A DNA stretch of 64,000 nucleotides from Synechococcus sp. BO 8801. Lineage in GTDB: Bacteria > Cyanobacteriota > Cyanobacteriia > PCC-6307 > Cyanobiaceae. Each line of letters begins with the position of its first letter. The stretch's first letter is position 1. The notes under the pieces were generated by a model. It ran no database searches. It saw only the letters and a program-made list of their open reading frames with translations, and was not told the DNA's origin. The stretch spans positions 1 to 64,000 of the forward strand of contig NZ_NQKY01000005.1 in the NCBI RefSeq assembly GCF_002252675.1, given 5' to 3'. Made by a program: the position numbers and the translations under genes. Positions 2 through 41,455 of this stretch are shown one piece after another.

Positions 2-499
2 GCCCTGCGGGTCTACGGGGTGGGGCTGGCGGCCCAGCAGCTGGAGGAGGCCGTGCGCCGCCGCCAGCTGCCGGTCCAGGTGGTGGAGGGCCCGGAGCAG
101 GCGGATGCGGTGCTGAGCGTGCGCGGCCAGCTGGGGCGCGACCCGGAGCTGCGCCGCCAGGCCCGCGACCTCGGCCTGCCGATCCTGGTGATCAAATCCG
201 ACACCCCCCACCAGCTGCAGCGGGCCATGGAGCGCCTCCTGGAGCGGCGCCGGGGGGGAGGCGGGACGGACGGGGAGGAACCGGCCGCTCCGGCCCGCCT
301 CGACGACGCCCATGCGGCCCTGGAGGAATGCCGGCTTGCGGTGGAGCAGGTGGTGCTGCCCGAGGGCCGGCCGGTGGAACTGCTGCCCCGCAGCGAAGCG
401 GTGCGGGCCCTGCAGGCCGAGCTGGTGCACCACTACCGGCTGCGCAGTGCGGTCTTCGGGCGCGGCCTGCAGCAGCGGCTGCGGGTCTTTCCCGCCTGA
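2..499 (+). CDS. Ycf45-like / R3H-type protein, C-terminal part (5' end outside window)
   Basis: The window opens inside this gene; the frame is open from base 2 with no stop and about 165 residues are visible. It reads into YGVGLAAQQLEEAV, then a stretch ending LPILVIKSDTPHQLQRAMERL, then a C-terminal module VVLPEGRPVELLPR...LVHHYRLRS...LRVFPA. That order matches my memory of cyanobacterial and plastid Ycf45 proteins, which carry an AAA-type ATPase domain followed by a C-terminal R3H-like nucleic-acid-binding module; the ATPase part would lie upstream of the window. The cellular role of Ycf45 is not established. A tRNA-Gln gene follows 112 bp downstream on the same strand. The family call is moderately sure; the function is not. 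Confidence 0.6.
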   Translation, partial: ALRVYGVGLAAQQLEEAVRRRQLPVQVVEGPEQADAVLSVRGQLGRDPELRRQARDLGLPILVIKSDTPHQLQRAMERLLERRRGGGGTDGEEPAAPARLDDAHAALEECRLAVEQVVLPEGRPVELLPRSEAVRALQAELVHHYRLRSAVFGRGLQQRLRVFPA

Positions 500-2878: not shown

Positions 2879-2880
2879 TT

Positions 2881-2907: not shown

Positions 2908-2917
2908 GGCGCCTGGC

Positions 2918-3420: not shown

Positions 3421-3672
3421 TCAGCCGTCGGCCAGGGTCCACCAGCCGGCCGCCGGGCCGATGAAGCGCACGGTGACCCAGAAAAGGGCCAGGCCGCCGA
3501 TGCCGATCCAGGCCCCCTTGGTGGTGATCGCCACGAAGCGGGAGGCCTGGTCGCGGGTCAGGGGCAGCCAGTCGACGATCCGGGGGGACGTGTCGACGGT
3601 CTTGGTTTTGCTGGCGCGTGGCTTGTCGCGGGGCGGCAGACCCTGCTCGGCCCGGCGTTTGGCTTCCCCCAT
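3421..3672 (-). CDS. DUF2839 family small membrane protein
   Basis: An 83-residue protein starting MGEAKRRAEQGLPPRD, a charged N-terminus typical of the cyanobacterial DUF2839 family, followed by WLPLTRDQASRFVAITTKGAW and one C-terminal hydrophobic segment (about residues 53-75). Function is unknown. It lies between DUF1815 and the helicase-like gene on the same strand; the stop codon of the helicase-like gene is 28 bp upstream of its start, so the two are probably co-transcribed. Confidence 0.75.
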   Translation of the reverse strand: MGEAKRRAEQGLPPRDKPRASKTKTVDTSPRIVDWLPLTRDQASRFVAITTKGAWIGIGGLALFWVTVRFIGPAAGWWTLADG

Positions 3673-3700
3673 CAGGCGTTCGGTGGCAACTGGCAGCAGG

Positions 3701-9472: not shown

Positions 9473-9592
9473 GGGGAATCACTCCGGGTGCAATTTTTTT
9501 CAGTGTGTCCCCAGGGGCGAAAACAAGCCACGAGCTGTTACATTCCCCGGCTTTTGTATCAACGACCACTGTTCAAGGTGTTGGATTCGTGA

Positions 9593-10303: not shown

Positions 10304-10312
10304 ACGTGTTCC

Positions 10313-11134: not shown

Positions 11135-11141
11135 AGGGAAC

Positions 11142-11291
11142 TCAGGAACCCAGGCGGGAGGCGATCCAGGCGCCCATGCCGCCGGCGGAGGGGTGGGGCA
11201 CCGCGTCGCGGTCGAGCCACCAGAACGAGAGGGCCAGCACGTTCAGACCGATGACCAGGGCGTAGATCCGCCAGCCTTCCGGGAGCTTCAT
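11142..11291 (-). CDS. small single-pass membrane protein (49 aa)
   Basis: Starts MKLPEGWRIYALVIGLNVLA and continues LSFWWLDRDAVPHPSAGGMG to end ...SRLGS. One hydrophobic segment (about residues 10-26) is followed by an acidic/His loop. It lies 7 bp upstream of the META protein gene in the same direction, so it is the first gene of that operon. I know no named family. Support is the membrane segment, a good ATG and the spacing. Confidence 0.6.
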   Translation of the reverse strand: MKLPEGWRIYALVIGLNVLALSFWWLDRDAVPHPSAGGMGAWIASRLGS

Positions 11292-11345
11292 GACGTAGGC
11301 CTGCGATGGCGGCGACGATAGATCCGCCGCCGCTGGCCCCGTCCC

Positions 11346-12401: not shown

Positions 12402-12471
12402 GGGGCGGCAGCGGGGGTGGACCACGGCAATCCTGACGCCGGCAGCCCCTGGCTCCGGCAGGGGCCGCCCT

Positions 12472-13956
12472 TCACATCAGGCCAGGTTCCGGGCTGCCGA
12501 AGGGGGCCTGGGTCTGGGCCTGGGTCGTCTCCTGGATGGCCAGGCGGCGGCTCTCGAGGATCTGGCCGATCTCGCGGGCGAAGCTGGGCTGGCGGTCGAT
12601 CATCTGGTTGACCACCGTGGCGGAGATCTTCATCACCTCCAGGTCGTTGCTGGCCGCGATCGTGACGGCGCTGGGTTCGCCGGAAAACAGACTCATCTCC
12701 CCGAAGAATTCGCCGCTTCTGAGGGACAGCAGTTCGCGATCCTCGCCGGTCCCATCGCGTCGGGTCATCAGGGCCTGACCGGCCACGATGATGTAGAGGG
12801 CGTTGCCCATCTGGCCCTGGCGGATCACCTTTTCGCCGGCGGCGAAATGCTGCAGGGAAATGCCGGAGGCGGAGGGGGTGACGCTGTCGTCCTCCCGGTT
12901 GATCGGGACGTAGGAGGGGATGGCCTGCAGGCTTTCACTGAACTTCTTGGCGAGGCCCTTCTGCTGGCTCGTGGGGCCGTGGAAGTTGTAGACGGTGCGG
13001 ATCGGGAAGGGGATGGAGAGATTGTTGCGTTTGGCCGCGTACCACACCCGGGTCATGAAACGTTCGCGGATCTGCTCGATCTCGCCGTAGTCACGGATGA
13101 AGAACTTCACCTCATAGGTGACAGCGGAATCGGCATAGGCGAGGGTGAACACATCGGGCTCGGGATCCAGCAGGATCCCCTTGGTTTCCAGGGCCGTGCT
13201 CTTGAGCACCTGCCGGGCCAGGTTGGGGGGATCGTTGTAGGAGAAGCCGATCTGGATCCGCTCGGCGTGGATCGGGGTGGGTTTGGTGAAGTTGCGGATC
13301 ACCTCGCTGCTGATCAGCTTGTGGGGAATCACCACCATCTCCTGCTCCAGGGTGAGCAGGCGCACGGCGCGCCAGTTGATGTCGATCACCTGGCCCACCA
13401 CGCCGCTCACCTCGAGCCAGTCGCCCACCGTGAACGGCCGCTCGAACAGCAGGGCGATGCCCGACATGACGCTGCCGAGGGTGTCCTGCAGGGCCAGGCC
13501 GATGACGATCGAGCTCACCCCGAGGGCGGTGACCAGGCCGGCCAGATCGGCGTTCCACACGGTGGCCAGCACGAAGGCGGTGCCCAGCAGGATCAGAAAC
13601 AGGCGGGCCAGATCGATCAGCAATTTGGGCACCCGGGAGCGCCAGGTGTCGGCTTCGGCCTGCTCGAACAGGATCACGTTGAGCAGGGAGAGGGAGGCGT
13701 GGATCACGCACACCCAGAACACCGTCTCCACCGTGCGGAACAGGCGGGTGCCGGGATCGACCTGGAGCAGGTGCTGCAGGAAGACCAGCAGCGCCAGCAT
13801 CGGCACCAGCACGTCCCGCACCAGCCGCACGGTGCCGGCGATGGCCCGCCGCCGCCGCTTGAGCCGGTGGATGATTTCCCCCAGCAGGATCGTGGCCAGG
13901 GGGAAGCCGAAGGCCAGGCCGATCCCCCAGAGCCAGATGGGGGTGGGGGTGCTCAT
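12472..13956 (-). CDS. MscS-family channel with cyclic-nucleotide-binding domain (bCNG type)
   Basis: 494 residues from ATG 13956, which overlaps the cyclase stop as ATGA. Several N-terminal membrane helices (IWLWGIGLAFGFPLATILL, VLVPMLALLVFLQHLL, LLIDLARLFLILLGTAFVLA) precede the MscS pore helix TALGVSSIVIGLALQDTLGS and beta domain (FTVGDWLEVSGVVGQVIDI). A C-terminal CNB domain spans about 365-475: HFAAGEKVIRQGQMGN, LYIIVAGQALM, and the phosphate-binding cassette FFGEMSLFSGEPSAVTI. The Arg usual in that cassette is absent (Ser near 429), so ligand and affinity are uncertain. Family members are known as bacterial cyclic-nucleotide-gated channels. The overlapping cyclase gene suggests its ligand is made by the neighbour. 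Confidence 0.88.
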   Translation of the reverse strand: MSTPTPIWLWGIGLAFGFPLATILLGEIIHRLKRRRRAIAGTVRLVRDVLVPMLALLVFLQHLLQVDPGTRLFRTVETVFWVCVIHASLSLLNVILFEQAEADTWRSRVPKLLIDLARLFLILLGTAFVLATVWNADLAGLVTALGVSSIVIGLALQDTLGSVMSGIALLFERPFTVGDWLEVSGVVGQVIDINWRAVRLLTLEQEMVVIPHKLISSEVIRNFTKPTPIHAERIQIGFSYNDPPNLARQVLKSTALETKGILLDPEPDVFTLAYADSAVTYEVKFFIRDYGEIEQIRERFMTRVWYAAKRNNLSIPFPIRTVYNFHGPTSQQKGLAKKFSESLQAIPSYVPINREDDSVTPSASGISLQHFAAGEKVIRQGQMGNALYIIVAGQALMTRRDGTGEDRELLSLRSGEFFGEMSLFSGEPSAVTIAASNDLEVMKISATVVNQMIDRQPSFAREIGQILESRRLAIQETTQAQTQAPFGSPEPGLM

Positions 13957-28587: not shown

Positions 28588-29204
28588 CTAAACCGCCAAC
28601 GCCAGCTCCGGCACGAACGCCGCCGGAATCGCCCGCTGCAGCCCCCAGCGAATCGCCATCGGCCGCTCGCCCTCGTGGCTCACGTAATCCGCAAACCCCA
28701 GACACAGGAACCGCAGCGTCACCCCGCCGCGCCTGTTCTCCTCCCGCATGAACAGCAGCACCCGGCTGGCGCGCTTAACGTGGTGGATGTATCTCTGCCC
28801 GGTGGCGGACGCTTCCCGGGTGAGGCTCTGGCTCTCCCAGTGGAACTCCCACGGGGAGATGGCGACATCGTTATAGAGGGTGATGGGGGAGAACAGGCGC
28901 TCGGATTTCTTGAGGGTGATGAAGAAGACGTCGCACTGGGTGGCTTCATCAAAGAACACCCCCTCGCGGCCTGAAAAGGGTGGGCCTCGTTCAACAGCCC
29001 GAAGGCGGCGAACACCTCGGCGCGGGAGTAGCGGCCGTGGAGTTTGAGGGGAATGGGGGGCGGATCGGCGCGGCCCCAGTCGAGCGGCGTCACCAGGTGG
29101 TCGGTGCGCTCGATCAGCAGCGCGAACAGCTCCACCAGCTCGGCGCGGAGGTCGGCGGCGGCCCTGAGCCGGACGAGGGCCTCGGCCAGGGGCAGGTGCT
29201 GCCC
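28588..29204 (-). pseudogene. degraded copy of the 3' end of the PLD-helicase-DUF3427 gene
   Basis: About 617 bp that match the last part (29983-30600) of the helicase gene downstream, in the same orientation and at high similarity by eye. The encoded ends are nearly identical (IPAAFVPELALAV). A frameshift near 28975-28985 separates LLNEAHPF from GREGVFFDEATQCD, so no continuous protein results. The copy begins abruptly after the equivalent of GRQHVPLAEALVR..., and there is no helicase or PLD part. It lies between a DUF433 gene and a PIN module. See findings. Confidence 0.85.
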
Positions 29205-29982: not shown

Positions 29983-32900
29983 TCAAACCGCCAACGCCAA
30001 CTCCGGCACGAACGCCGCCGGAATCGCCCGCTGCAACCGCCAGCGAATCGCCATCGGCCGCTCGCCCTCGTGGCTCACGTAATCCGCGAACCCGAGGGAA
30101 AGAAACGGCAGCGTCACCCCGCCGCGCCTGTTCTCCTCCCTCACGAACAGCATCACCCTGCTGCCGCGCTCAACGTGATGGATGTATCTCTGCCCGGTGG
30201 CGGAAGCTTCCCGGGTGAGGCTCTGGCTCTCCCAGTGGAACTCCCACGGGGAGATGGCGTAATCGTTGTAGCGGGTGGTGGGGGAGAACAACCGCTCGGA
30301 TTTCTTGAGGGTGATGAAGAAGACGTCGCACTGGGTGGCTTCGTCAAAGAACACCCCCTCCCGGCCGGGGAAGGGGCGAGCCTCGTTCAAGAGCCCAAAG
30401 GCGGCAAACACCTCGGCGCGGGAGTAGCGGCCGTGGAGTTTGAGGGGGATGGGGGGCGGATCGGCGCGGTCCCAGTCGAGCGGCGCCACCAGGTGGTCGG
30501 TGCGATCGAGCAGCAGCGCGAACAGCTCCACCAGTTCGGCGCGGAGACCGGCGGCGGCCCAGAGCCGGACGAGGGCCTCGGCCAGGGGCACGTGCTGCCG
30601 GCCACTGCCCCAGAGCTGGGCCATCAGCATGCGCCAGCTGCGCTCGGTGGCGGGATCGAAGCTCGCCGGATCGGGCGCGATGGGCCGCTGCAACTGATCC
30701 GCCAGCCAGCGCAACTGCTCCGGGTCGTCCAGATGCAGCAGCCCGCCGGCGATCCCCCGCCCCAGCCGCTCCTCATCGCCGCTGGCCGCCGCCGCCGCCA
30801 CCCACCCCAACTCCCGCTGCAGCAAAGCCCACGATCCCGCCACCTTGTAAAACTCCCCCAGCTCCATCCCCAGCCCCTCCAGCAGCCCCGCCAGCGAACA
30901 GCGCCCGAGGCGGCGCGCTTCCGCCAGCAGCTGGGGACGGCGCGTGGGTAGCGACTCGCGCAGATTGGCAAGCACCCGCTCGCTGGACACCCGATCGAGC
31001 TGCAGGCTGCAGCCGGCCGGCAGGAAGGGAAACCCGTCTTTGATCTGCTGCTCCAGCTGGTCGCGGGTGCCGCCGAGCAGGGCGCGGTAGCGCAGGTCGA
31101 AGCGGAAGTTCCGGTGGGCCTGGCCGATGAAGTCGAGAACGGTGAGGCAGCTCTTGCCCCGGCAGAGGCGCAGACCGCGGCCGAGCTGTTGCAGGAACAC
31201 GATCGCGCTCTCGGTGGGCCGCAGGAACAGCACCGTGTCGATCTCGGGGATGTCGAGGCCTTCGTTGAACAGATCGACCGCGAACAGGATCTGCAGCTCG
31301 CCGGCGCGCAGGCGGCGGATCTGCTCAGCGCGCTGCTCCCGGGGGCTGGAGGCATCCAGGGCCGCGGCGCGCAGGCCGGCGGCCACGAACTTGCGGGCCA
31401 TCCAATGGGCGTGCTCCACGCTCACGCAGAAGCCCAGGGCCCGCATCGCCTCCAGGTTGGTGACCTTGTCTGCCAGTTCGCGCAGGATCAGGCGCAGGCG
31501 GGCGTCGTCGGCGGTGTAGAGGTTGGTGAGAGCTTCGCTGGCGTAGCCATTGCGGCGCCATTCGATCTGCGACAGGTTGGTGCCGTCGTGGAGGCCGAAG
31601 TAGTGGAACGGGCACAGCAGGCCCTGCTCCAAGGCGCTCCAGAGGCGCAGCTCGGCGGCGATGCGGCCGGCAAACCAATGGAGGATGTCCTCGCCGCCGG
31701 TGCGCTCGGGGGTGGCGGTGAGGCCCAGCAGCAAGGTTGGCGCCAGGTGGCGCAGCCAGCGCTCGTAGCTGGCGGATGCGGCGTGGTGGAACTCATCGAC
31801 GATCACCACGTCGAACGTGTCCGGCGCCAGGTCCCCCGGATCCAGCCCAGCGAGCGACTGCACCGAGGCGAACACATGGCGCCACTGGCTGGGGCGCTGG
31901 CCATCCACCAGCAGCTCGCCGAAGGAGCCATCGCGCAGCACCTGGCGGAAGGTGGCGAGGCTCTGCTGCAGGATCTCGCGCCGGTGGGCCACGAACAGCA
32001 GGCTCGGGTGGCCCGGACCGGCCTGGCGGGCGTAATCGAGGGCGGCGATCACGGTTTTGCCCGTGCCGGTGGCGGCCACCACCAGGTTGCGCCAGCGGCC
32101 ATGGAGGCTGCGCTCGGCCGACAGCTTGTCGAGGATCTCCTGCTGGTAGGCGTAGGGGCGGATGTCGAAGAAGCTGAGCGGGGTTGCGTCCGCCGCTGAA
32201 TCCCCCGCCGACTCCTCGCGCACGGCCCGATCAAAGCGGCGCTGCTCGATTTCGCTGGCCCGGTAGGGCTCGAACTCGCCCTCCTCCCAGTAGCTCTCAA
32301 AGGCGGCCTGGAACTTGGCCAGGATGCCCTCGTTGTCGTGGGCGGAGAGGCGCACGTTCCACTCCAGGCCGTCGTGCAACGCAGCAGTGGAGAGGTTGGA
32401 GGAGCCGATGTAGGCGGTGGAGGCAGGTGTGGCTCCCAAGAGACCAGGCCGATGGAACAACCACGCTTTGGCGTGCAGGCGGGTACGGCGGGTGTCGTAG
32501 CTGACGCGCACCTCGGCGCCATTCGCCACCAGCCAATCGAGGGCTCGGCGGTCGGTAGCGCCCAGGTAGACGGTGGTGAGCACCCGCAGGGAGCGGCGGG
32601 GCTGGGCCTGCAGGAACGCCGACAGCGCCGGCTGGAGCAGGCGCAGACCGCTCCACTTGATGAAGGCGCAGAGCAGGTCGATCCGCTGGGCGGAGGGGAC
32701 TTCGTGGATCAGCGCCTGCCCCACCGACGGTTCGCCGCTGGCGTTCACCAGCAGGGTGCTGTCGGCCAGGGGGATGAGCGGGCCAATGGTTTTGGTCTGG
32801 CCAGGCAGGCGAGCTGTGGATCGGATCTCCAACAGCAGCCGGCCGGAGGGGTGAAGAAGGTCGCCTTGGGAGATGGCGCGGGGTGCATTGCTCTGGAGCA

Positions 32901-33135
32901 GGCCCACCAGTTGGTTCACCAGGGCCAGCTGGTGCTCAGGGGTGGCGCCTCCGCTCAGGTGAGCCAGGGCAATGCGGGCCAGACCCGCCAGATGACGGGC
33001 CAACAGGCGCGGGGCTTCTTTGGGATCAAGGCCGTCGGTTTCGACCAGGGTTTCATGCAGGTGGCGCAGCTGCTGCTCCAGGCCCTCGGTGAGAAGTTGT
33101 TGGTAGAGGCCGGCGGGTGGTTCCTGGTCGGGCAT
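29983..33135 (-). CDS. PLD-like nuclease-helicase-DUF3427 fusion protein
   Basis: 1050 residues. N-terminal PLD/HKD-type nuclease domain (about 130-290) with LHAKAWLFHRP (HxK) and AYIGSSNLSTAAL. A superfamily II helicase follows: Walker A AATGTGKT (354-361), VVIVDEFHHAAS (DEAH-like), GLTATPERTGGED (motif III), FAVDLFNEGLDIPEID and QQLGRGLRLCRG (motif VI). The C-terminal third has GCSLQLDRVSSERVLANLRE and is the DUF3427-type region ending IPAAFVPELALAV. Such fusions occur in restriction/defence islands, where a nuclease is coupled to ATP-driven movement along nucleic acid. It is divergent from the large A/T-rich gene and its 3' third is partly duplicated at 28.6 kb. Confidence 0.85.
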   Translation of the reverse strand: MPDQEPPAGLYQQLLTEGLEQQLRHLHETLVETDGLDPKEAPRLLARHLAGLARIALAHLSGGATPEHQLALVNQLVGLLQSNAPRAISQGDLLHPSGRLLLEIRSTARLPGQTKTIGPLIPLADSTLLVNASGEPSVGQALIHEVPSAQRIDLLCAFIKWSGLRLLQPALSAFLQAQPRRSLRVLTTVYLGATDRRALDWLVANGAEVRVSYDTRRTRLHAKAWLFHRPGLLGATPASTAYIGSSNLSTAALHDGLEWNVRLSAHDNEGILAKFQAAFESYWEEGEFEPYRASEIEQRRFDRAVREESAGDSAADATPLSFFDIRPYAYQQEILDKLSAERSLHGRWRNLVVAATGTGKTVIAALDYARQAGPGHPSLLFVAHRREILQQSLATFRQVLRDGSFGELLVDGQRPSQWRHVFASVQSLAGLDPGDLAPDTFDVVIVDEFHHAASASYERWLRHLAPTLLLGLTATPERTGGEDILHWFAGRIAAELRLWSALEQGLLCPFHYFGLHDGTNLSQIEWRRNGYASEALTNLYTADDARLRLILRELADKVTNLEAMRALGFCVSVEHAHWMARKFVAAGLRAAALDASSPREQRAEQIRRLRAGELQILFAVDLFNEGLDIPEIDTVLFLRPTESAIVFLQQLGRGLRLCRGKSCLTVLDFIGQAHRNFRFDLRYRALLGGTRDQLEQQIKDGFPFLPAGCSLQLDRVSSERVLANLRESLPTRRPQLLAEARRLGRCSLAGLLEGLGMELGEFYKVAGSWALLQRELGWVAAAAASGDEERLGRGIAGGLLHLDDPEQLRWLADQLQRPIAPDPASFDPATERSWRMLMAQLWGSGRQHVPLAEALVRLWAAAGLRAELVELFALLLDRTDHLVAPLDWDRADPPPIPLKLHGRYSRAEVFAAFGLLNEARPFPGREGVFFDEATQCDVFFITLKKSERLFSPTTRYNDYAISPWEFHWESQSLTREASATGQRYIHHVERGSRVMLFVREENRRGGVTLPFLSLGFADYVSHEGERPMAIRWRLQRAIPAAFVPELALAV

Positions 33136-33197
33136 GGGTATCGAGGCGCCTGAGGCTGCCGTAGATCGAAAGGAGCAGGTTCGATTTGTGACGATGT

Positions 33198-33339
33198 TAT
33201 TCGGATTCGAATAGCTTCCGCGTGGATCTCAAAGTCCAAACAGGGATTAATGATCTTTCAAGAGGTCTTCTGTTGCTAGGCTTGTTAGAGTCTGTGACTT
33301 ATGCAGAAAGTCCAGAGCCATAATGGGTGTTATGCAGAA
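33198..33339. promoter_or_regulatory. palindrome and 10-bp direct repeats between divergent defence-like genes
   Basis: TATTCG-GATT-CGAATA (33198-33213) is a perfect inverted repeat. TTATGCAGAA occurs twice, at 33299-33308 and 33330-33339. All lie in the 270-bp A/T-rich gap between the helicase start (33135) and the large gene start (33410). This is the place for two divergent promoters and for an operator. Confidence 0.5.
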
Positions 33340-33409
33340 CCCGTCCAATTAGGAGTTAGGCTGCTCTGGCGTTATCGCGCATCACATTCCAACAAGAGGG
33401 GTCTTGCGA

Positions 33410-36400
33410 GTGATTATTAATGAGAACCAGCTGGACGAGTGGGTCCGCGGTAACGCACGAGAGGCTCAAGGTGTAATTGTTGAACTTGTATGGCGCTTAG
33501 TAGCTGCTTCATCTCCTAAGCCAAGAGAGCGTCGGTTCCCCTTGGGTGATGCTATTGGCCAGCACGGACCCGATGGGCTTTTGGATGTAGATCTCGCATT
33601 CGATCCATTCGTCCCAGAGGGCCGCTCGTTTTGGGAAATAGGAACAGGGCTAAATGCTGGCGCAAAGGCCACCTCCGATTACGGCGACCTACTTAAAGCA
33701 ATACCAGAAAGTACCCGGCTTGAGTCCACTTTTGTGTTCGTTACGCCCCTTTCGGGACGGAGGGACTGGGAACATACATGGAAAGAGGATGCGCAGGGGG
33801 CGTGGCTTGAAGTGCGTCGTGCGAAAAATGAATGGCGGGAAGTTCGCGTCATTGATGGAACGAAGCTTATCGACTGGATTCATCAGTATCCTCCCGTAGA
33901 ACTCTGGCTGGCGCAGCGGACAATCTGCTTGCCCGTTCATCAGCTCGACACACCAGAGCAGCGTTGGAACTTGGTTCGCACTATCGGAGAGCCGCCACCC
34001 CTTACGCCCAAACTTTTTCTGACGTGTAGGGATGACGTTTGCGCAAAACTTGACGAAGTAGTGGCTGGAACAGCTGTCCAGCTTAAGTTAGAAACGCACT
34101 TCCCTGATCAGGTAGTCGACTTTGTGTCTGCGTACTTGGCAAACCTAGATGCCGAGAATCATGCAGATGCGGCTGGGCGATGCCTTGTTGTTTCCGGCGC
34201 CGACGCATGGAATGCTATATGTTCTCAGAAAGAGAGGTTCATCTTAATTGCTGACTCCACGCTTGATTTAAGCGGCGAGATCGGCACAAAGCTGATCCAA
34301 AAAGCTCGAAGGAATGGGCACGCTGTAATCTTCGGCGGGCCAGCGGGTGGCATACCTGACCCTACAAGTGTGTCGCTACGACCGCCCCGATCACATGATG
34401 TCCGGGAGGCGCTGGAGCAGGCGGGATACGGCGAGGAGCGGGCCCGCACGTTGGCGCAAAAGAGTGGTGGTCACCTTGGCTCATTGCTCAGATGTCTTCA
34501 GAATCTCTCTCTCATGCCTGAATGGGCTGAGGGCTCCGTTGCCTCTGAATTGGCTATCGCGGCATTGCTCGGCGCCTGGACCGATGATTCAGATGCCGAC
34601 AGAGCGGTGGTGGAGGACCTATCGGGAAACTCCTACGGGGAGTGGATCGGCAAGATGCGTGAGGTTGCGCTTCGCCCGGGCACTCCCCTGACTCAGCGAG
34701 CCGGAAAATGGCGGTTTGCGGCCCGCTATGAAGGGTGGTATGCCCTTGGTCCGAAACTCTTCGACGATCATTTAGTGCGCTTGCGGAATGTAGCGGCTTA
34801 TGTATTGACGGAGAAGGACCCCCAGTTCGAGCTTCCTAAGGAAGAGCGATACGCAGCGAGAATACAAGGTAAAGTTCTTACTCATTCATGGCGCTTACGA
34901 AGCGGCCTCGCAGGGTCGTTAGCCTTGTTGGGAAGCCATCCTAAGGCACTCTCATCTTGCACACATGGGAGAGCCGAGCTGACAGCGGTTTTGGCGGTCC
35001 GCGACATACTTGCTGACGCCGATTGGGAGCGTTGGGCCAGCCTTGGCGATCTGCTTCCCCTACTTGCAGAAGCTTCGCCGGAAGAATTCCTTAGCGCCAT
35101 GGAGAAGGCACTTGCTACAAGGCCGTGCCCCTTCGATCTTGTCTTTGCTGAAGAAAGCGATGGTGTTACGGGTCGCACCTACATGAGTGGCGTACTCTGG
35201 GCTTTGGAGACTTTGGCTTGGGACCCGAGTCACTTATACCGCGTCGTGATCTGTCTAGGAGAGCTTGCCGAACGAGACCCGGGTGGCAATTGGTCCAATC
35301 GTCCAGCAAATTCTCTGTCCACGATCCTATTGCCATGGTTGCCTCAGACATGCGCACCGGTGGACAAACGTGCGGCAGCTATATCTGGATTGCTCACCGA
35401 GGTTCCAGAGATTGGATGGAATTTGCTCGTTAGCCTACTTCCTCAATCGAAATCAACTTCACCTGGCACGAGTAGGCCCGCTTGGCGCCAGACGATTCCC
35501 GAAGACTGGTCGAAGGCTGTAACTCGTCGTGAGTACTGGGAGCAAGTTGAATTATACTCAAATATGATGATCGAGACGGCCAGGCTTGACCGTAAGAAGC
35601 TGGAGATATTGATAGATCATATTGAGAGCCTGCCCCCATTGCCACGAGAGTGCCTTCTGGACCATCTGAGTTCTGATGCAGTGATCAGGATGCCGGAAAG
35701 TGATCGAATGAGACTATGGAATGCGCTTGTCGATGTAGTCACGAAGCATAAGAAGTTTTCTGGCGCTGAATGGGCGATGGGGCCGGACCAAGTCGACAGG
35801 ATTACCTCTGTTGCTGAACGCATGTCACCAGATGCGCCAGCCTTCCGGCATCAACGGCTTTTTGGTGAGCGTGATTCTGAACTGTATAAGGAGAAGGGAA
35901 ACTACGACGAGCAACATAATGAACTCGAACTTTCTCGTCAACGAGCCGTAGAGGAAGTCGCGATGGGCGGAGTACAGGCTGTGCTTGAATTCGCGGAGAC
36001 AGTCCAGTCGCCTTGGCGCGTTGGAATAGCCTACGGTGTTGTGGCAGGTCCGGATATGAATAGCGTCATTTTGCCCGACTTGGTGGAATCCGAACAGAAG
36101 CAGCTTTGTCAGTTTGCAGGTGGGTTTGTTATTAGCAGGTTTCGCATCGGTGGTTGGCAGTGGGTGGATGGTATCGATACAACGCGATGGTCTTCATCTC
36201 AGATCGGGCAGTTTCTCTCATTTTTGCCCTTCGCACAGGGAGCGTGGGAGCGCTCCGCACGTCTTCTTGGGTCGGATGAGGTTTCGTATTGGAGCAAGAC
36301 GAGCGCGATTCCCTATCAGACGGATACGGGCCTCGAACACGCAATCGATGAGCTTGTTCGTTACGGACGTCCTATTGCCGCACTGAGGTGTCTCCATAAG

Positions 36401-37210
36401 ATGTTGCTTGATAAACAGCCGCTTGATGGTGAGCGTACCGTGCGGGCATTGCTAGCAGCATTGGAATCGACCGAGAGAATGCACTCACTGGATGCCTATG
36501 AGACAGCAGAGCTCATCAAGGCTCTGCAGCAAGATCCGACCACGCAGCCTGAAGACTTGTTCCGAGTCGAATGGGCGTATTTGCCCCTTCTCGGTCGACA
36601 CAATGATTGTGCTCCGAGATTGCTTGAGCGACGCTTGGCGACAACACCCGCCTTTTTCTGCGAAGTGATTCGTCTCGTCTTCCGATCTAAAATCGAAGAA
36701 CGACTATCTGAAGATATGACGGAGGAAAGAAAAGGAATCGCAGGCAACGCCTATCGCCTCTTGAACGAGTGGCAGACGCCACCAGGCTTGCAAGTGGATG
36801 GCACCTTTGATGGTGCCGCTCTTGGTCGATGGCTGGATGCTGTCAAGGAGGAGTGCGCGGAGACTGGACATATTGAGATTGCAATGACGATGATTGGCCA
36901 TTCGTTGATTCACGTGCCGTCGGATCCCGACGGATTGTGGATACATCATTCAGCCGCTGCGGCTCTGAACGCAAGGGATGCTGAGGACATGCGAAATGGA
37001 TTTCGTACTGAGCTGTACAACTCTCGCGGCGTGTACTGGGTTGATCCCACCGGCGCGCCAGAGAGAGAACTGGCAACGAAGTATCGCGCGCAGGCCGAAG
37101 CTGTCGAGAATGCTGGATACCATCGATTGGCAACTACTCTTCGAGAATTGGCGGCGACATATGAGCGTGACGCAGATGGCGCGGCTTCCAGAGATCGCAT
37201 TGATGAGTGA
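33410..37210 (+). CDS. large A/T-rich protein with nuclease-like N-terminus, candidate defence sensor
   Basis: About 1266 residues. GTG 33410 is preferred to TTG 33404 because GAGGGG lies 8 bp before it. The N-terminal 170 residues resemble a PD-(D/E)xK-type module: QHGPDGLLDVDLAFDPFVPE, then GRSFWEIGTGLNAGAKATSD, and a strand STFVFVTPLSGRRDW. The next part is NTPase-like but I find no Walker A; HAVIFGGPAGGIPDP and REALEQAGYGEERARTLAQ recall STAND-type proteins. The last 700 residues look helical and have no named domain. Codons end often in A/T, unlike flanking genes, a sign of recent transfer. Divergent from the PLD-helicase. Function is inferred, not recognised. Confidence 0.65.
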   Translation: MIINENQLDEWVRGNAREAQGVIVELVWRLVAASSPKPRERRFPLGDAIGQHGPDGLLDVDLAFDPFVPEGRSFWEIGTGLNAGAKATSDYGDLLKAIPESTRLESTFVFVTPLSGRRDWEHTWKEDAQGAWLEVRRAKNEWREVRVIDGTKLIDWIHQYPPVELWLAQRTICLPVHQLDTPEQRWNLVRTIGEPPPLTPKLFLTCRDDVCAKLDEVVAGTAVQLKLETHFPDQVVDFVSAYLANLDAENHADAAGRCLVVSGADAWNAICSQKERFILIADSTLDLSGEIGTKLIQKARRNGHAVIFGGPAGGIPDPTSVSLRPPRSHDVREALEQAGYGEERARTLAQKSGGHLGSLLRCLQNLSLMPEWAEGSVASELAIAALLGAWTDDSDADRAVVEDLSGNSYGEWIGKMREVALRPGTPLTQRAGKWRFAARYEGWYALGPKLFDDHLVRLRNVAAYVLTEKDPQFELPKEERYAARIQGKVLTHSWRLRSGLAGSLALLGSHPKALSSCTHGRAELTAVLAVRDILADADWERWASLGDLLPLLAEASPEEFLSAMEKALATRPCPFDLVFAEESDGVTGRTYMSGVLWALETLAWDPSHLYRVVICLGELAERDPGGNWSNRPANSLSTILLPWLPQTCAPVDKRAAAISGLLTEVPEIGWNLLVSLLPQSKSTSPGTSRPAWRQTIPEDWSKAVTRREYWEQVELYSNMMIETARLDRKKLEILIDHIESLPPLPRECLLDHLSSDAVIRMPESDRMRLWNALVDVVTKHKKFSGAEWAMGPDQVDRITSVAERMSPDAPAFRHQRLFGERDSELYKEKGNYDEQHNELELSRQRAVEEVAMGGVQAVLEFAETVQSPWRVGIAYGVVAGPDMNSVILPDLVESEQKQLCQFAGGFVISRFRIGGWQWVDGIDTTRWSSSQIGQFLSFLPFAQGAWERSARLLGSDEVSYWSKTSAIPYQTDTGLEHAIDELVRYGRPIAALRCLHKMLLDKQPLDGERTVRALLAALESTERMHSLDAYETAELIKALQQDPTTQPEDLFRVEWAYLPLLGRHNDCAPRLLERRLATTPAFFCEVIRLVFRSKIEERLSEDMTEERKGIAGNAYRLLNEWQTPPGLQVDGTFDGAALGRWLDAVKEECAETGHIEIAMTMIGHSLIHVPSDPDGLWIHHSAAAALNARDAEDMRNGFRTELYNSRGVYWVDPTGAPERELATKYRAQAEAVENAGYHRLATTLRELAATYERDADGAASRDRIDE

Positions 37211-37287
37211 CCCGCGCTTAGTAATCGCCTGTAACGGACATACCGTTGTGCACCTAGAGGCTGAAACTTAGCTTTCTACAAGCATAT

Positions 37288-38150
37288 TCAATAGGCTTTC
37301 CTATCAGCAATCACCCCCCGAACGTCTCCGCGGGGGGACTTGTCATCACCTCTCGCCTCGGGATCAGATGCCAATGCGCATGAAACGCCGTCTGCCCCGC
37401 CGCCTCGCCTGAGTTCAGCCCCCCTCAGGCGTTGAGCCAACCAGCCCAGTCGCTGATCGTCGCGTCCTGGGCGCCCAACTGCTCCCGCCGCAGCTTCAGC
37501 AGCTCCACCACGGCGTTCCACTCCGGCTGGTGCAGCTCCAGCCCGTCGGCCCCATGACGACGCGGGATCACCAGGCTGTGCCCCTCGTTCTCCAGCAGCA
37601 ACCGGCCGCTGCCCTCCAGCGCGCAGAATACACAGCCCGCGTCGCGGTGGCCGTCGCTGGCCTGCACACCGCGGAAGTCGGTGCGCCCTCTTGCGTAGGC
37701 AAACAGCCGTCGCGCCTGCCGGCGTTGCAGCGGAAGCAGAACGCCCGCAGGTTGCTGATGGCGTCGGAGCCGCCCTGGTTCTTGGGGATGATGTGGTCCA
37801 CCTCCAGGGCCCGCTGATGCTCGTGAGCGCCGCAGCACTCGCAGCGGCCCCGGGCGCATCGGTGAACCGGGTATTTCACCGAGCCGCTGATCGGGCTGCG
37901 GTGGCGGCTGCGGTGGGCAAACACCTCTTCGCCGCGCTGCTCGCGGTAGGCATCGAGGCGCTGGCGGCAGAGCTCCAGCAGCGCGCCGCGCTCGCCATCG
38001 CTCAGCTCGTCGCCGCCGACCAGGCTGTCGTGGCCATCGCCTTAGGCGGTGATGCCGTTGAAGGAGAAGCCGGCCCACCATGCGCTTCCCAGGATCCGTC
38101 GGGCCACGTTGTGCGCCTGGGCGGGGGCATGGGGCATCCTGGCGGGGTGA
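37288..38150 (-). pseudogene. broken HNH-HIT protein gene
   Basis: The minus strand encodes, in several frames, a protein of the HNH endonuclease + HIT hydrolase type. Pieces in order: GDELSDGERGALLELCRQRL and EEVFAHRSRHRSPISGSVKY; the HNH module GRCECCGAHEHQRALEVDHI with IPKNQGGSDAISNLRAFCFR; then a frame change to FRGVQASDGHRDAGCVFCAL (HIT start), GHSLVIPRRHGADG, a further change to GLNSGEAAGQTAFHAHWHLI (the HxHxH signature) and finally SPRGDVRGVIADRKAY. An in-frame TAA lies after FNGITA near the start. At least three frameshifts, one stop and an internal deletion show it is dead. Its 5' end is repeated, in fragments, four more times downstream. Confidence 0.8.
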
Positions 38151-38170
38151 GACGGGGGGTGGCACTTGCC
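38131..38170 (-). repeat. leader repeat, copy A
   Basis: About 40 bp upstream of the broken HNH-HIT gene with the plus-strand form GGGGCATCCTGGCGGGGTGA...GGGGGGTGGCACTTG. Related copies lie at 38898-38935 (B), 39810-39847 (C) and 41416-41455 (E), each just upstream (minus strand) of an HNH-HIT gene fragment. Confidence 0.75.
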
Positions 38171-38249
38171 TTTCGAGGTTCTCTCTGCTCTTTCACCATG
38201 CTCACCCAGCTCGCGGATTCAGTCAGCGGCTCCACCCCAGCCACGCAGG

Positions 38250-38522
38250 GTGGTGATCCGCTTTGATCCCCTCAAGCGGCTGCGGACTCTGGAGCAGCGA
38301 GGCCTGGACTTTCTCGATGCTGAACGCGTCTTTGCCGGGCCGACGCTGGAGTTTGAAGACCGCCGGCGCGACTATGGTGAGGTTCGGACTGTCTGCCTGG
38401 GTCTGCTTGAGGGTCGCATGGTCGTGATCATCTACACCCAGCGTTCCTTTTTCCGTCAGGTCATTTCGATGCGTAAGGCCAATGCAAGAGAGCAACTACG
38501 TTTTCGCCACCACTTCTCCTGA
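38250..38522 (+). CDS. brnT: BrnT-family toxin
   Basis: About 90 residues from GTG 38250 (GTG 38253 equally possible). The BrnT core is recognisable: VIRFDPLKRLRTLEQRGLDF, LDAERVFAGPTLEFEDRRRD, VCLGLLEGRMVVIIYTQR, and the C-terminal SMRKANAREQLRF (IISARKA-type motif). BrnT is a RelE-fold ribonuclease. The BrnA antitoxin gene starts inside its 3' end, the usual brnTA order. It is the first TA module after the broken HNH-HIT gene, divergent from it. Confidence 0.85.
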   Translation: MVIRFDPLKRLRTLEQRGLDFLDAERVFAGPTLEFEDRRRDYGEVRTVCLGLLEGRMVVIIYTQRSFFRQVISMRKANAREQLRFRHHFS

Positions 38523-38664
38523 TGACCCGATTCGCTCGGATCTACAGCGTGTGGATGCGCATGTGATCCAGCCTGAAGAGTATGCCGAGATTCCGGAGAT
38601 CACGGATGACGATCTGGCACGTGCTGTGATCAAGGGGCCGCGCAAGCTCGATCAACCTCAGTAA
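38482..38664 (+). CDS. brnA: BrnA-family antitoxin
   Basis: 60 residues. The BrnA pattern is SDLQRVDAHVIQPEEYAEIP followed by EITDDDLARAVIKGPRK. BrnA normally has a C-terminal ribbon-helix-helix DNA-binding part with longer length; this one ends soon after the PEIT(D/E)..ARA motif, so it is short and may be truncated by the adjoining HNH-HIT fragment. Start ATG 38482 overlaps brnT by 41 bp; the N-terminal residues before SDLQ are unlike typical BrnA. Confidence 0.8.
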   Translation: MQESNYVFATTSPDDPIRSDLQRVDAHVIQPEEYAEIPEITDDDLARAVIKGPRKLDQPQ

Positions 38665-38720
38665 CGTTGCTTCCGCCTCGATCACCCCTGAGCCCCACTC
38701 TCGGCCGCTCATGTTCCCCC

Positions 38721-38935
38721 TGTCGCTCAACTCGTCGCCGCCGATCAGGGCGTAGGCACCGTTGCCAAAGCGGGTGATGCCGTTGCCGGTGTGCACCCGA
38801 CCCACCACGCGCTTCCCAGGATCCGCCGGGCCATGTCCTGCGCGGGGGCGGGGCTGAGGCGGCCCAGCAGCTCCATGAGCATCAGCGGTTGGTCGATGGG
38901 GATCCTGGCGAGGGTGAGAAGGGGTTGGCACTTGT
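38721..38935 (-). repeat. HNH-HIT gene 5' fragment, copy B
   Basis: About 215 bp on the minus strand resembling the 5' part of the broken HNH-HIT gene. It reads PLMLMELLGRLSPAPAQDMA and RRILGSAWWVG, then in a shifted frame TGNGITRFGNGAYALIGGDE and LSD. It lies between brnA and the HigB-like gene and starts just after leader copy B. It is not expected to be translated into anything useful. Confidence 0.75.
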
Positions 38936-39040
38936 AACAGGAGCAACACAGGCAAGCCAGGCCGCCATGTCAGCGCGTGATCCCCTTCGCCCGGCCCCAC
39001 TGCCTGGCGTGCCTACGTCCGGCGGGGGTAAGGTAACGGT

Positions 39041-39319
39041 GTTATCAGGTCGTTTCATTGCCGCGACACCCAGGCCCTCTTTGAAGGGAAGCCAGGGCGC
39101 CGCTTTGGAAGCTTCGCTCGTGTGGCGTCCCGCAAGCTCGCCATCCTCGACGCCGCCGGATGCCTCAACGATCTGCAGATCCCACCGGGCAATCGCCTGG
39201 AGCCGCTCAGGGGGAACCGCCATGGCCAGCACAGCATCCGTATCAACGACCAGTTCCGGCTCTGCTTTGTCTGGACGGACGCCGGGCCAGAGGAGGTCGA
39301 GATCGTTGACTACCACTGA
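39041..39319 (+). CDS. HigB/RelE-like toxin; start codon apparently lost
   Basis: The conserved HigB frame reads IRSFHCRDTQALFEGKPGRR, FGSFARVASRKLAILDAAGC, LNDLQIPPGNRLEPLRGNRH and QHSIRINDQFRLCFVW ... VDYH, a complete plasmid-maintenance-killer-type toxin (about 92 residues). At the place of the initiator the codon is GTT (39041), then ATC; a purine-rich GGGGGTAAGG lies upstream. The first usable start in frame is GTG 39122, which would remove about 27 conserved residues. The toxin is therefore probably translated poorly or not at all, while the HigA gene downstream is intact. Confidence 0.7.
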   Translation, partial: VIRSFHCRDTQALFEGKPGRRFGSFARVASRKLAILDAAGCLNDLQIPPGNRLEPLRGNRHGQHSIRINDQFRLCFVWTDAGPEEVEIVDYH

Positions 39320-39635
39320 AGTGATGCTCGTGCCCCCGGGCGAGGTGCTGCTGGAGGAGTTTCTGCGGCCCATGGGAATCAGCCAGTACCGGTTGGCGCT
39401 GGCGATCGGTGTGCCGGAGAGCCGCATCAACGCGATCGTGAAGGGCAAACGGGCCATCACTGCCGACACCGATCTGCGCCTGTGCCGTTTCTTCGGCCTG
39501 AGCGAGGGCTTCTGGCTGCGGATGCAAGGGAGCCACGATCTGAAGCTGGCGAAGCAGGCCCTGGAAAGCGTGCTGCCGACGATCGAGCCAATTCAGTCAA
39601 TGGTGCGAGGAGGGCTTGCGGTTCAGTGCCAGTAG
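39306..39635 (+). CDS. higA: HigA-family antitoxin (XRE-type helix-turn-helix)
   Basis: 109 residues from TTG 39306, preferred because AGGAGGT lies 8 bp upstream and the start overlaps the higB 3' end (ATG 39324 is an alternative). Family features: VMLVPPGEVLLEEFLRPMGI, helix-turn-helix ISQYRLALAIGVPESRINAI, KGKRAITADTDLRLCRFFGL and EGFWLRMQGSHDLKLAKQAL. HigA binds HigB and represses the operon. The last dozen codons run into HNH-HIT fragment C. Confidence 0.88.
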   Translation: MTTTEVMLVPPGEVLLEEFLRPMGISQYRLALAIGVPESRINAIVKGKRAITADTDLRLCRFFGLSEGFWLRMQGSHDLKLAKQALESVLPTIEPIQSMVRGGLAVQCQ

Positions 39636-39847
39636 CTGGTCGCGCTCAGCGTCGCTCAGCTCTACTGCTAAGCAGAAGCCTTCGGCTGCGCCGCCCACCA
39701 GGGCGTAGGTGCCCTTCTCGCAGCGGGTGATGCCGTTGAAGGTGAACCCGGCCCACCATGCGCTTGCCAGGACCCGGCGGGCGATGTCCTGTGCGGGGGC
39801 GGGGGCATAGGGGCATCCTGGAGCGGGTGACGGGGGTGGCACTGGTG
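39629..39847 (-). repeat. HNH-HIT gene 5' fragment, copy C
   Basis: About 220 bp. The minus strand reads YAPAPAQDIARRVLASAWWA, GFTFNGITRCEKGTYALVGG and VELSDAERDQLLALNRK. It shares the junction of the proline-rich start and the AQDIARR segment, and the SAWWAGF(S/T)FNGIT stretch, with copy A, so both come from one already altered ancestor. An extra AAEGFCLA segment is inserted before ELSD. Leader copy C (39810-39847) precedes it. Confidence 0.75.
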
Positions 39848-39943
39848 AGGGGAGAGGCCTAGAAGATCCCCATGCCAGCGCCACAACCAGCCCACGGTCG
39901 TGATCTGGTGTCCCCCTTAGGCTGGGGAAGCCAGGAAACCGTC

Positions 39944-40177
39944 ATGACAGACCAGCTTGGGCGCATCACCCTCAACCCTGAGATCTGCCATGGAAAACCA
40001 ACCATCCGCGGCTTGCGTTATCCCGTGGAGATGGTGCTCGAACTGTTGTCAGCTGGGATGAGTGCGGCTGACATTCTTGCCGATTATCCAGATCTCGAGG
40101 CTGAAGACATCACGGCAGTGCTTGAGTACGCAACCCAGCTTTCCCGAATTCAGCGGGTTGATCTCCTTTCTGCATGA
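39944..40177 (+). CDS. DUF433 antitoxin-like protein
   Basis: 77 residues from ATG 39944. The family pattern ITLNPEICHGKPTIRGLRYP is followed by VEMVLELLSAGMSAADILAD and YPDLEAEDITAVLEYATQLS. It is the antitoxin partner of the DUF5615 gene, joined by ATGA. Only distantly related to the DUF433 gene at 28.4 kb. Confidence 0.88.
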   Translation: MTDQLGRITLNPEICHGKPTIRGLRYPVEMVLELLSAGMSAADILADYPDLEAEDITAVLEYATQLSRIQRVDLLSA

Positions 40178-40527
40178 GGATCCTGCTGGATGCCCAGCTG
40201 CCACGATCTCTCGTTCGGCCGCTGGAGCAATTGGGTCGCGACGTCCTGCACACCCTTGATCTACCTGATGGAAATCGCAGCGCCGACAGCATGATTTCCT
40301 CCATTGCCGACAGCGATGGGAGAGTTGTCTTCAGTAAGGATGCGGATTTCGTCCGTAGTCATCTCTTGCGCGGCACTCCCGCCAGGCTTCTGCTTGTGGC
40401 CACGGGCAACATTGGGAACCAGGAACTCACCGCCCTGCTGCTTCGTGTTCTGCCGGAACTGAACCGGCTGTTTGAAACCCATGTCCTCATCGAGCTGAGT
40501 CGGAAGGCATTGGTTGTGAGGCATTGA
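40174..40527 (+). CDS. DUF5615 PIN-like toxin
   Basis: 117 residues. PIN-like acidic residues: MRILLDAQLPRSLVRPLEQL, the SADSMISSIADSDG stretch (Asp), and VVFSKDADFVRS. The C-terminal half LLLVATGNIGNQELTALLLR is typical of the family. A 4-bp overlap couples it to the DUF433 antitoxin. The third TA module in the 38-41 kb array. Confidence 0.88.
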   Translation: MRILLDAQLPRSLVRPLEQLGRDVLHTLDLPDGNRSADSMISSIADSDGRVVFSKDADFVRSHLLRGTPARLLLVATGNIGNQELTALLLRVLPELNRLFETHVLIELSRKALVVRH

Positions 40528-40584
40528 GCGTCAGTCACCTCCGCGCCGAACAGGTATCTGACCACAGAGCTCCTGGGCCTCCTC

Positions 40585-40638
40585 TCGGCGATCGTGTGCC
40601 GCAGGCGCTCGGAGGTGTCGGAGGGCGGCGGGGGCATG
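40585..40638 (-). repeat. HNH-HIT gene 5' fragment, copy D
   Basis: A short fragment. The minus strand reads MPPPPSDTSERLRHTIAERR, similar to the start of copy E (MPPPPSATYERLRQFIAER). The match ends soon afterwards. There is no full leader repeat. The 210 bp between this fragment and hicB hold nothing else I can identify. Confidence 0.6.
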
Positions 40639-40850
40639 GAGTGATGGTGGCGGCTTCCGGGCGAGCGGGCCAGGTCTGGTTTTGGGCGGCCCGTCAGGCC
40701 ATCGCCCCTGCTGGGACCCCTTCTCGCGTGGGCGTGATGCGGCTCCAGCCCACCCGTCTCAGGGGTGTGGCTGTGCCGCCCCAGACCCTTTGCCCAGACA
40801 GGGGCAACTTCCTGCCCACCACTGCAAGACTGGTGCCACTGGAGGGCGCC

Positions 40851-41057
40851 ATGCAGGAAATCCTTTTCGTGGTCGAGGAGGCGGAGGATGGTTCCTTCCG
40901 GGCCAGCGCAGCTGCCGCGGCGATCCACACCGAGGCCGACACGCTTGAGGACCTCCACAGGGAGATTCGCGACGCCGTTGTCTGCCACTTCGATCCCGGC
41001 CAGGCGCCACCCCTGATCCGCCTCCATCACGTGAGGCAGGAACTGCTGGCCCTGTGA
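40851..41057 (+). CDS. hicB: HicB-family antitoxin
   Basis: 68 residues from ATG 40851. Pattern: MQEILFVVEEAEDGSFRASA, then AAAIHTEADTLEDLHREIRD and AVVCHFDPGQAPPLIRLHHV. This is the short, DNA-binding-domain-free HicB type with partial RNase H-like fold. GTGA joins it to hicA. In this pair the antitoxin gene precedes the toxin. Confidence 0.85.
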   Translation: MQEILFVVEEAEDGSFRASAAAAAIHTEADTLEDLHREIRDAVVCHFDPGQAPPLIRLHHVRQELLAL

Positions 41058-41299
41058 GGATTCCGCGGGACGTCAACGGCCAGCTCCTGGCCGAACGCCT
41101 GCGGCGCCATGGCTACGTGCTGACCCGTCAGACAGGTAGTCACATGCGGCTGAGCCGAAGCTCTGACGGCCAGCAGCAGCACCTCACCATTCCTGCCCAC
41201 AAGCCCCTGAGGGTCGGCACCTTGCGGCAGATCCTCAAGGACGTGGCCAGCCAACTGGGCTGCTCGATGGAAGAGGTGATCGGCAGCCTTGATTTTTGA
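41054..41299 (+). CDS. hicA: HicA-family mRNA interferase toxin
   Basis: 81 residues, GTG start overlapping hicB. Double-stranded RNA-binding-like fold with RIPRDVNGQLLAERLRRHGY, the active-site His region VLTRQTGSHMRLSRSSDG, and LTIPAHKPLRVGTLRQILKD. The GSH catalytic motif is intact, so the toxin is probably active. The stop lies a few bases from HNH-HIT fragment E. Confidence 0.88.
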   Translation: MRIPRDVNGQLLAERLRRHGYVLTRQTGSHMRLSRSSDGQQQHLTIPAHKPLRVGTLRQILKDVASQLGCSMEEVIGSLDF

Positions 41300-41303
41300 G
41301 GGC

Positions 41304-41455
41304 CGGGCTACGGCGCCTGAGCAGCTCGATGAGCATCAACGGTCGGTAGATGGGGCTCATGCACATCCGCTCGGCGATGAACTGCCGCAGGCGCTCGTAG
41401 GTGGCGGAGGGGGGTGGGGGCATCCTCGCTGGGCTGTGGCGGGGGCGGCACTGGT
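41304..41455 (-). repeat. HNH-HIT gene 5' fragment, copy E, with leader
   Basis: The minus strand reads MPPPPSATYERLRQFIAERM, CMSPIYRPLMLIELLRRRSP, then breaks off into hicA. It is the only copy with an intact 5' end. PLMLIELLRRRSPA overlaps copy B's PLMLMELLGRLSPAPAQ, so the copies together give the complete start of the gene. Leader copy E follows (to 41455). Beyond it, up to 41565, I see nothing else. Confidence 0.75.

Follow-up and report, generated by a model that had tools for sequence, protein, structure and literature searches.

A predicted single-gene anti-phage receptor with a P-loop-less STAND-shaped domain in a cargo slot of Synechococcus sp. BO 8801

The window analysed here comprises positions 1 to 64,000 of contig NZ_NQKY01000005.1 of Synechococcus sp. 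BO 8801 (64,000 nucleotides), and our subject is one of its genes, located at 33410-37210 on the forward strand and encoding the protein that we designate P0001. P0001 is probably a one-gene anti-phage receptor-effector of PD-Lambda-4_A/Avs type that would make no use of ATP at the canonical site, with the defence role predicted from sequence, models and gene context. This reading is supported by the domain order in structural models, domain-wise homology to PD-Lambda-4_A, loss of Walker A, conservation of D57, E78, G80 and K88, the presence of different heads in relatives, and defence contexts. In the proposed mechanism, the C-terminal solenoid (residues 376-1268) would recognise a phage product and the STAND-shaped middle, its P-loop lost, would act as a relay or oligomerisation hinge. 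The N-terminal PD-(D/E)xK-like domain (D57, E78 and a candidate migrated lysine, K88) would then cut DNA, protecting the population via abortive infection or phage-genome destruction. The relevant features of the gene are listed below, with residues numbered from the TTG codon at 33404.

33410..37210, forward strand: window gene (P0001), a single-gene cargo with PD-(D/E)xK-like, P-loop-less STAND and solenoid parts; 1266 residues from GTG
33404..33934, forward strand: residues 1-177, PD-(D/E)xK-like domain, from the model element order alpha-beta-beta-beta-alpha-beta and a profile match to the N-domain of PD-Lambda-4_A
33572..33574, forward strand: codon of D57 (motif G-x-D-G), invariant in 27/27 family members
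33635..33643, forward strand: codons of E78-I79-G80, with E78 and G80 invariant in 27/27; aligned to Q79-V80-K81 of PD-Lambda-4_A (L033)
33665..33667, forward strand: codon of K88, invariant in 27/27, close to where the helix following strand 3 begins; candidate for a migrated lysine
33935..34528, forward strand: residues 178-375, AAA+/STAND-shaped domain without P-loop (iSTAND), from models, profile comparison and motif scan
34088..34117, forward strand: residues 229-238 (LETHFPDQVV), which face the PD-Lambda-4_A P-loop GLSGVGKTRL in the alignment
34529..37207, forward strand: residues 376-1268, all-helical HEAT/ARM-like solenoid, putative sensor; module common to relatives with other N-termini

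The open reading frame (ORF) runs from 33404 to 37210 on the forward strand with a TTG start (1268 residues); a purine-rich stretch lies upstream of the GTG at 33410, which we consider the likelier start. The window gene has a GC content of 0.541 and a third-position GC content (GC3) of 0.527, whereas six other ORFs in the window have GC3 values of 0.71-0.90. Sliding windows of 3801 bases outside the gene average a GC content of 0.698 (standard deviation 0.022, minimum 0.644, n=526), and the five windows of lowest GC overall all fall on the gene. No match to P0001 was found in the 41 other genomes of the genus (completeness 64-100 %), whilst two of the 98 other genomes searched as relatives carried matches at 27-33 % identity (three of 99 with the host counted). 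The nearest relative found, at 75 % identity, was in a Burkholderiaceae metagenome-assembled genome (MAG; locus L001). The gene is real and, on these sequence characteristics, looks foreign and horizontally acquired, consistent with the A/T-rich, recently acquired gene described in the initial annotation. A housekeeping gene was rejected on its absence from the genus, and a decaying pseudogene on ratios of non-synonymous to synonymous substitution rates (dN/dS) of 0.05-0.14 against L001 and the intact ORFs of relatives. Amongst viral contigs, none matched P0001 or its relative L014 as single proteins, and L032 found its own contig only; phage records gave one weak match with 39 % coverage. A further relative, L008, lies in a record labelled as a Bordetella parapertussis MAG, a species label that looks doubtful for a MAG contig. 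No work on the P0001 family appeared among the papers listed in literature searches, which were made by terms, not by sequence.

P0001 could be tied to a known defence protein, PD-Lambda-4_A (PADLOC PDLC03991, a 1283-position profile). A table in the available part of PMC10952713 attributes the PD-lambda-4 system to Vassallo et al. 2022, and the mechanism of the system is not addressed in the available portions of the literature found naming it. As a search profile, PD-Lambda-4_A weakly matched six of the nine members of our family alignment A1 (best E 8.1e-5) and left P0001 unmatched at E up to 1. It also matched 14 of 369 genomes belonging to the class of L004's genome (E up to 0.01). Twelve of these loci were fetched; all twelve contained a P-loop by reading, and the seven that were aligned all carried D..Q-x-K. 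Comparison of whole-length profiles linked the P0001 family and PD-Lambda-4_A with a probability of 99.3 (E 7.6e-21). Each domain paired with its counterpart: N with N at 88.9 (E 2.4e-6), middle with middle at 53.8 (1.3e-4) and C with C at 98.6 (5.4e-16). In controls, the best wrong pair (middle against N) reached 6.8 (E 0.005) and reversed sequences at most 0.4.

The N-terminal domain was modelled as part of residues 1-419 (14 sequences, predicted local distance difference test (pLDDT) 84). It shows helices followed by three strands, then another helix and another strand, an arrangement that matches a PD-(D/E)xK core as judged from the order of its elements. D57 directly precedes the second strand, E78 lies within the third and K88 is close to the start of the next helix, so that by element order and invariance the acidic pair is placed on strands 2 and 3 as in PD-(D/E)xK cores. 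D57 also stands opposite the invariant D56 of PD-Lambda-4_A. A BFVD search returned an endonuclease I (probability 0.99, E 0.01) and a restriction endonuclease (probability 0.85, E 0.055) amongst AAA+ proteins. D57, E78, G80, K88, D92 and D151 were invariant across 27 family members, a count that excludes L006 and L018, which both lack an N-domain, the split L020/L021, the broken L078, L061, which is the L004 gene, L012, which is the window gene, and unfetched plasmid hits. The canonical ExK lysine is thus replaced by G80 in every member, with K88 invariant nearby. The nuclease module proposed in the initial annotation therefore stands as regards the fold, D57 and E78, but not as regards the ExK lysine.

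That substitution is one reason to consider that the N-domain may be a dead nuclease, binding DNA or nucleotides instead of cutting, which would leave P0001 as a sensor or regulator acting with a partner nuclease, for example a type I restriction-modification (R-M) complex like those near several relatives or the type IV enzyme encoded in the window. The operon-like placement of L001 and L011 with hsdS and hsdR would suit such a role, and inactive restriction endonuclease (REase) and iSTAND domains are described as sensors in the available text of PMC12839542. The conservation pattern is unusual for a dead site, however, as D57, E78, K88, D92 and D151 are all invariant and the head was the most conserved part in eight of nine pairs compared. 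The middle was level with the head in the L007 pair and was the least conserved part in the L005 pair. Against L001, the head showed 0.86 identity and a dN/dS of 0.05, the middle 0.09 and the two solenoid halves 0.14 and 0.06. These figures are rough because dS was 1.3-3.2 (1.4-1.7 in the nuclease part and iSTAND), and L001 was the only pair with finite dS in every part, dS being saturated in most other comparisons. The constraint on the head favours, without proving it, an active site in which the lysine has migrated. In addition, the two N6-methylase matches of the host lie on contigs other than that of the window, and the cargo is one gene. We consider the dead-nuclease explanation rather unlikely, yet the best of the alternatives.

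In the model, residues 178-399 of P0001 match AAA+ proteins such as ClpA and RFC in VIA (Z 9-10, root-mean-square deviation (rmsd) near 4). No Walker A pattern was present anywhere in P0001, nor at the aligned P-loop site in any of the 27 family members; elsewhere in the protein it occurred in two of them (L017 at residue 562 and L030 at residue 76). P0001 thus has the STAND/AAA+ fold without Walker A that characterizes iSTAND domains. The absence of Walker A and the NTPase-like part lacking a P-loop had both been noted from the sequence at the outset, and both hold. Non-canonical nucleotide binding by this domain, which would make P0001 an ordinary ATP-gated receptor of Avs/PD-Lambda-4 type, might be argued from the AAA+ fold retained in the model, the conserved L361 and near-invariant R363 (26/27) in the lid region, and the essential Walker A residues of Avs5 (PMC12931631, available portion). 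It is nevertheless quite improbable, since the ten P0001 residues facing the P-loop contain neither glycine nor lysine, type B relatives (below) lack any profile match to the middle domain, and in type C the solenoid begins almost at once.

A second model, of residues 330-1268 (19 sequences, pLDDT 86, predicted template modelling score 0.59), gave an all-helical solenoid resembling HEAT/ARM proteins, in agreement with the long helical C-terminal half proposed previously. Relatives of this solenoid carried other N-termini, of which representative loci are given here.

L023:9242-12784: type B example; other type B loci are L022, L024-L027 and L031, with E. coli examples L071 and L072
L018:7573-7893 with 7899-10667, and L028:9660-9983 with 9998-12793: type C, two-gene form
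L063:864-1508 with 1498-4080, and L064:74-520 with 510-3095: type D, split genes or programmed frameshift

Type B comprised L022-L027 and L031, of which L023, L024, L025 and L031 were nearly identical. Their solenoids were 44-49 % identical to P0001 from residue 344-374 onward, preceded by about 250-280 residues with no profile match to the STAND part. The type B head is unrelated to that of P0001 and carries a D-x-D-D ... G-Q-[VI]-K motif, on the strength of which we call it QxK nuclease-like; it had no match in Pfam and none that convinced in the PDB, and profile comparison did not link it to the N- or middle domain of either family. Type B genes, annotated as hypothetical proteins, were found on the chromosomes of eight of 5426 E. 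coli genomes (seven with at least 80 % of the query), and the two such loci inspected lay among prophage or insertion sequence (IS) remains. In type C (L018 and L028), the solenoid protein, 36-38 % identical to P0001, begins almost directly with the solenoid and has a HetE-N protein of 106-107 residues directly upstream (1.5e-40 and 5.6e-33). A motif of 15-16 residues is common to the C-terminus of HetE-N and the N-terminus of the solenoid protein, and 0 of 2000 shuffles reached its score at either locus; it may resemble amyloid signalling motifs, perhaps of the BASS3/RHIM kind. Type D (L063 and L064) came from the seven of 369 genomes matched by the solenoid profile. Here an ORF with an RNxxxH motif, recognized by eye and on that basis termed HEPN-like, extends into the solenoid ORF, which is read in another frame; a Pfam scan of this HEPN-like ORF in both loci returned nothing. 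Within type A, an N-terminal helix-turn-helix (HTH) was annotated in L014, L015, L017 and L073-L075, and seen by alignment in L019. Conflict systems are known to combine a constant part with varying heads, according to the available text of Kaur et al. 2020 (PMC7159879). In types B, C and D no STAND part was recognized, which suggests that none is needed for the solenoid to drive an effector.

The position of the window gene was delimited by comparison with other members of the genus, as follows.

33222..37309, strand not assigned: cargo slot of 4.1 kb, limits from G003 (33221 and 37310); the sole long ORF is the window gene
29983..33135, reverse strand: left boundary gene with PLD-like, helicase and DUF3427 parts; PADLOC mREase_IV (type IV methyl-directed restriction enzyme)
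G003 slot cargo: SIR2 protein (PDB phmmer 1.6e-50) and HerA (3.4e-135)
G007 slot cargo: McrB (1e-40)
G004 slot cargo: PglZ protein (1.1e-7)
G025 slot cargo: DUF262 protein (1e-7)
G041 slot cargo: 1984-residue protein matching SF1 helicases only

The slot was examined in five of the 41 genus-mates, picked for a long, well-conserved left boundary gene and a continuing contig, and all five carried other cargo (loci L056-L060). Homology reached 33138-33221 on the left in four and resumed at 37310-37354 on the right in four; apart from G003, the limits were 33138-33148 and 37349-37354. Left homology stopped at 32708 in G007, and in G004 12 kb did not suffice to reach the right boundary. On these matches, families known in defence occupy four of the five slots, the fifth being uncertain, and the site next to the type IV restriction gene is a putative hotspot of defence cargo in these five genomes. 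That the cargo in our window is one gene suggests that P0001 works alone. The left boundary gene matched Pfam ResIII, DUF3427 and helicase domains and PADLOC mREase_IV (8.7e-271), with PLDc_2 just below the cut-off (26.7 vs 27 bits), and long copies at 87-94 % identity were present in several genus-mates.

Flanks with called ORFs were available for nine of eleven close relatives of P0001, and R-M genes recurred in them. In L001, hsdM-hsdS touch the gene, with hsdR about 6 kb farther; in L011 the order is hsdM, Fic, hsdS and the gene, with hsdR following at a distance of about 10 bases. L002 and L010 have hsdS-hsdR directly before the gene, L007 has hsdM-hsdS about 2 kb before it, and L009 a NERD-UvrD helicase in its context, whilst the neighbours of L008 were scanned only within a pooled tally of 118 ORFs. 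Relatives were also found in 22 plasmid records, 11 of them typed as conjugative, of which 12 were inspected. Among these, L014 lay with genes for SIR2, abortive infection and a RES toxin, L015 with Shedu-domain, SLATT and DUF2357 genes, L016 with ImmA/IrrE and a PDDEXK nuclease, L074 with type I R-M genes, and L078, a broken copy, with a restriction endonuclease and iron uptake genes. L013 was accompanied by ParAB and conjugation genes, L017, L018, L073, L075 and L076 by IS elements and mostly hypothetical genes, and L077 was unannotated. No housekeeping pattern emerged, though for some relatives the context speaks neither for nor against defence. Maintenance or regulation of plasmids and islands in place of anti-phage defence, to which the plasmid records, the N-terminal HTH of several relatives and the ParA/ParB neighbours of L013 might point, is very unlikely given a slot that alternates with SIR2-HerA, McrB, PglZ and DUF262 genes, nuclease-like and HEPN-like heads on one solenoid, and homology to an anti-phage protein.

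Several results weigh against P0001 being a receptor-effector of the proposed kind. The missing ExK lysine makes its nuclease activity uncertain, and the nuclease fold rests on the model and the profile match, the Foldseek list being dominated by the AAA+ domain. P0001 had no match in Pfam, NCBIfam or PADLOC at E up to 1 save one chance NCBIfam hit. The VIA alignment to Avs4 covers both N-terminal domains (4..413) with an rmsd of 16.6 over 331 residues, and because of that value it shows domain order, not fit. Solenoid Z values in VIA of 6 to 9 (maximum 9.2) fall under the telling level of the tool for helical repeats and so indicate a common arrangement only. As to context, type I R-M genes occurred near the gene in at least five of the nine close relatives, a count made with no random-locus control, and the neighbours in L004 (an integrase) and L005 (a PAS-GGDEF gene) are of a non-defence kind. 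Even so, the STAND-type anti-phage sensor suggested in the initial annotation is favoured by the PD-Lambda-4_A homology, the Avs4 match, the slot contents of five genus-mates and the R-M contexts, and its placement of the gene between a PLD-helicase and a toxin-antitoxin array is borne out by the mREase_IV gene on the left and toxin-antitoxin-like ORFs, identified by eye, on the right.

In the current understanding, NLR-like and Avs-like receptors work as switches gated by ATP. Tentatively, and with somewhat less confidence than an even chance, we propose that P0001 and its relatives represent an ATP-independent family of bacterial immune receptors in which one solenoid sensor would drive the effector itself through at least four exchangeable heads, with loss of the NTPase switch a matter of design, not decay. 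The four heads of this joint proposal would be a nuclease-like domain acting via a dead STAND, a different nuclease-like domain acting directly, a HEPN-like RNase, and HetE-N acting via a shared, possibly amyloid-type, motif. A conserved mobile family with this layout but no P-loop, whose sensor also occurs without a recognizable STAND, would make the need for an ATP switch testable. The findings also point to a defence-gene hotspot within an environmental genus, adjoining a type IV restriction gene, and to genes near prophage remains in E. coli that may form an unannotated defence family.

The surroundings of the slot displayed further features. A direct repeat of about 615 bases (92.5 %), at 28590-29203 and 29985-30599, shows that the type IV restriction gene has an extra partial copy of its 3' end; in several genus-mates, too, fragments of this gene adjoin the copies. 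On the right, 37425-38165 (reverse strand) holds what we take by eye to be HNH- and HIT-like remains in two frames, perhaps a broken gene at the edge of the slot. The small ORFs of the right flank (38166..41299, forward strand) presumably correspond to BrnT/BrnA, HigB/HigA, DUF433/DUF5615 and HicB/HicA, as named by eye. Repeats of 63-157 bases (37998-39843 and 40569-41423) lie near the joins of these toxin-antitoxin-like pairs, also in genus-mates, giving the region the look of a cassette array.

Compared to known systems, P0001 resembles PD-Lambda-4_A, with a similar length, the same three-domain order, each domain aligned to its counterpart, and an HTH-like N-terminal extension in some members of both (by eye on the PD-Lambda-4_A side). 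The relationship is barely seen by pairwise BLASTP (best E 0.001, 12-sequence set), and the PD-Lambda-4_A members fetched keep D..QxK and an intact P-loop, where the P0001 family has ExG and no P-loop. The slot holds one long ORF; the second PD-Lambda-4 gene, B, the existence of which the PADLOC name implies, was not searched for. Avs4/AVAST (8dgf; Avs5, 9nc9) shares the layout of N-terminal effector, STAND-shaped middle and C-terminal repeat. In a Foldseek search with the 1-419 model, p97 structures were on top and portal-bound Avs4 was the first defence protein (rank 3, E 7.5e-4, probability 0.98), whilst a PDB sequence search with the family profile gave two chance hits only (E 0.12-0.16) and no Avs chain. 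Avs proteins possess a functional P-loop NTPase, unlike P0001, and its missing Walker A is the surprising point because mutation of Walker A abolishes immunity in Avs5, as reported in the available part of PMC12931631. Because Walker A and QxK were both looked for and found to be absent, P0001 is not classed as a member of PD-Lambda-4_A or Avs.

Two further systems resemble relatives of P0001, as far as the available portions of their papers describe them. TgvAB (PMC11411939) is embedded in type I R-M loci, as L001 and L011 lie inside or against hsd operons, but it is described as a GmrSD-like two-gene type IV system. BASS, the amyloid motifs associated with bacterial NLRs (PMC8086366), resemble the type C motif, a short stretch shared by the end of a small partner protein and the beginning of the receptor, although that motif was seen only in L018 and L028 and the partner is HetE-N, not Bell. 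Finally, the iSTAND proteins described in the available text of Kaur et al. 2020 (PMC7159879) and, for BrxB/PglW, of PMC12839542 likewise have a STAND without Walker A and belong to conflict systems with variable effectors and paired effector-associated domains. Those known iSTANDs sit in MoxR-vWA ternary systems or BREX, whereas in P0001 the iSTAND is part of a single protein, with a nuclease-like head before it and a solenoid after it.

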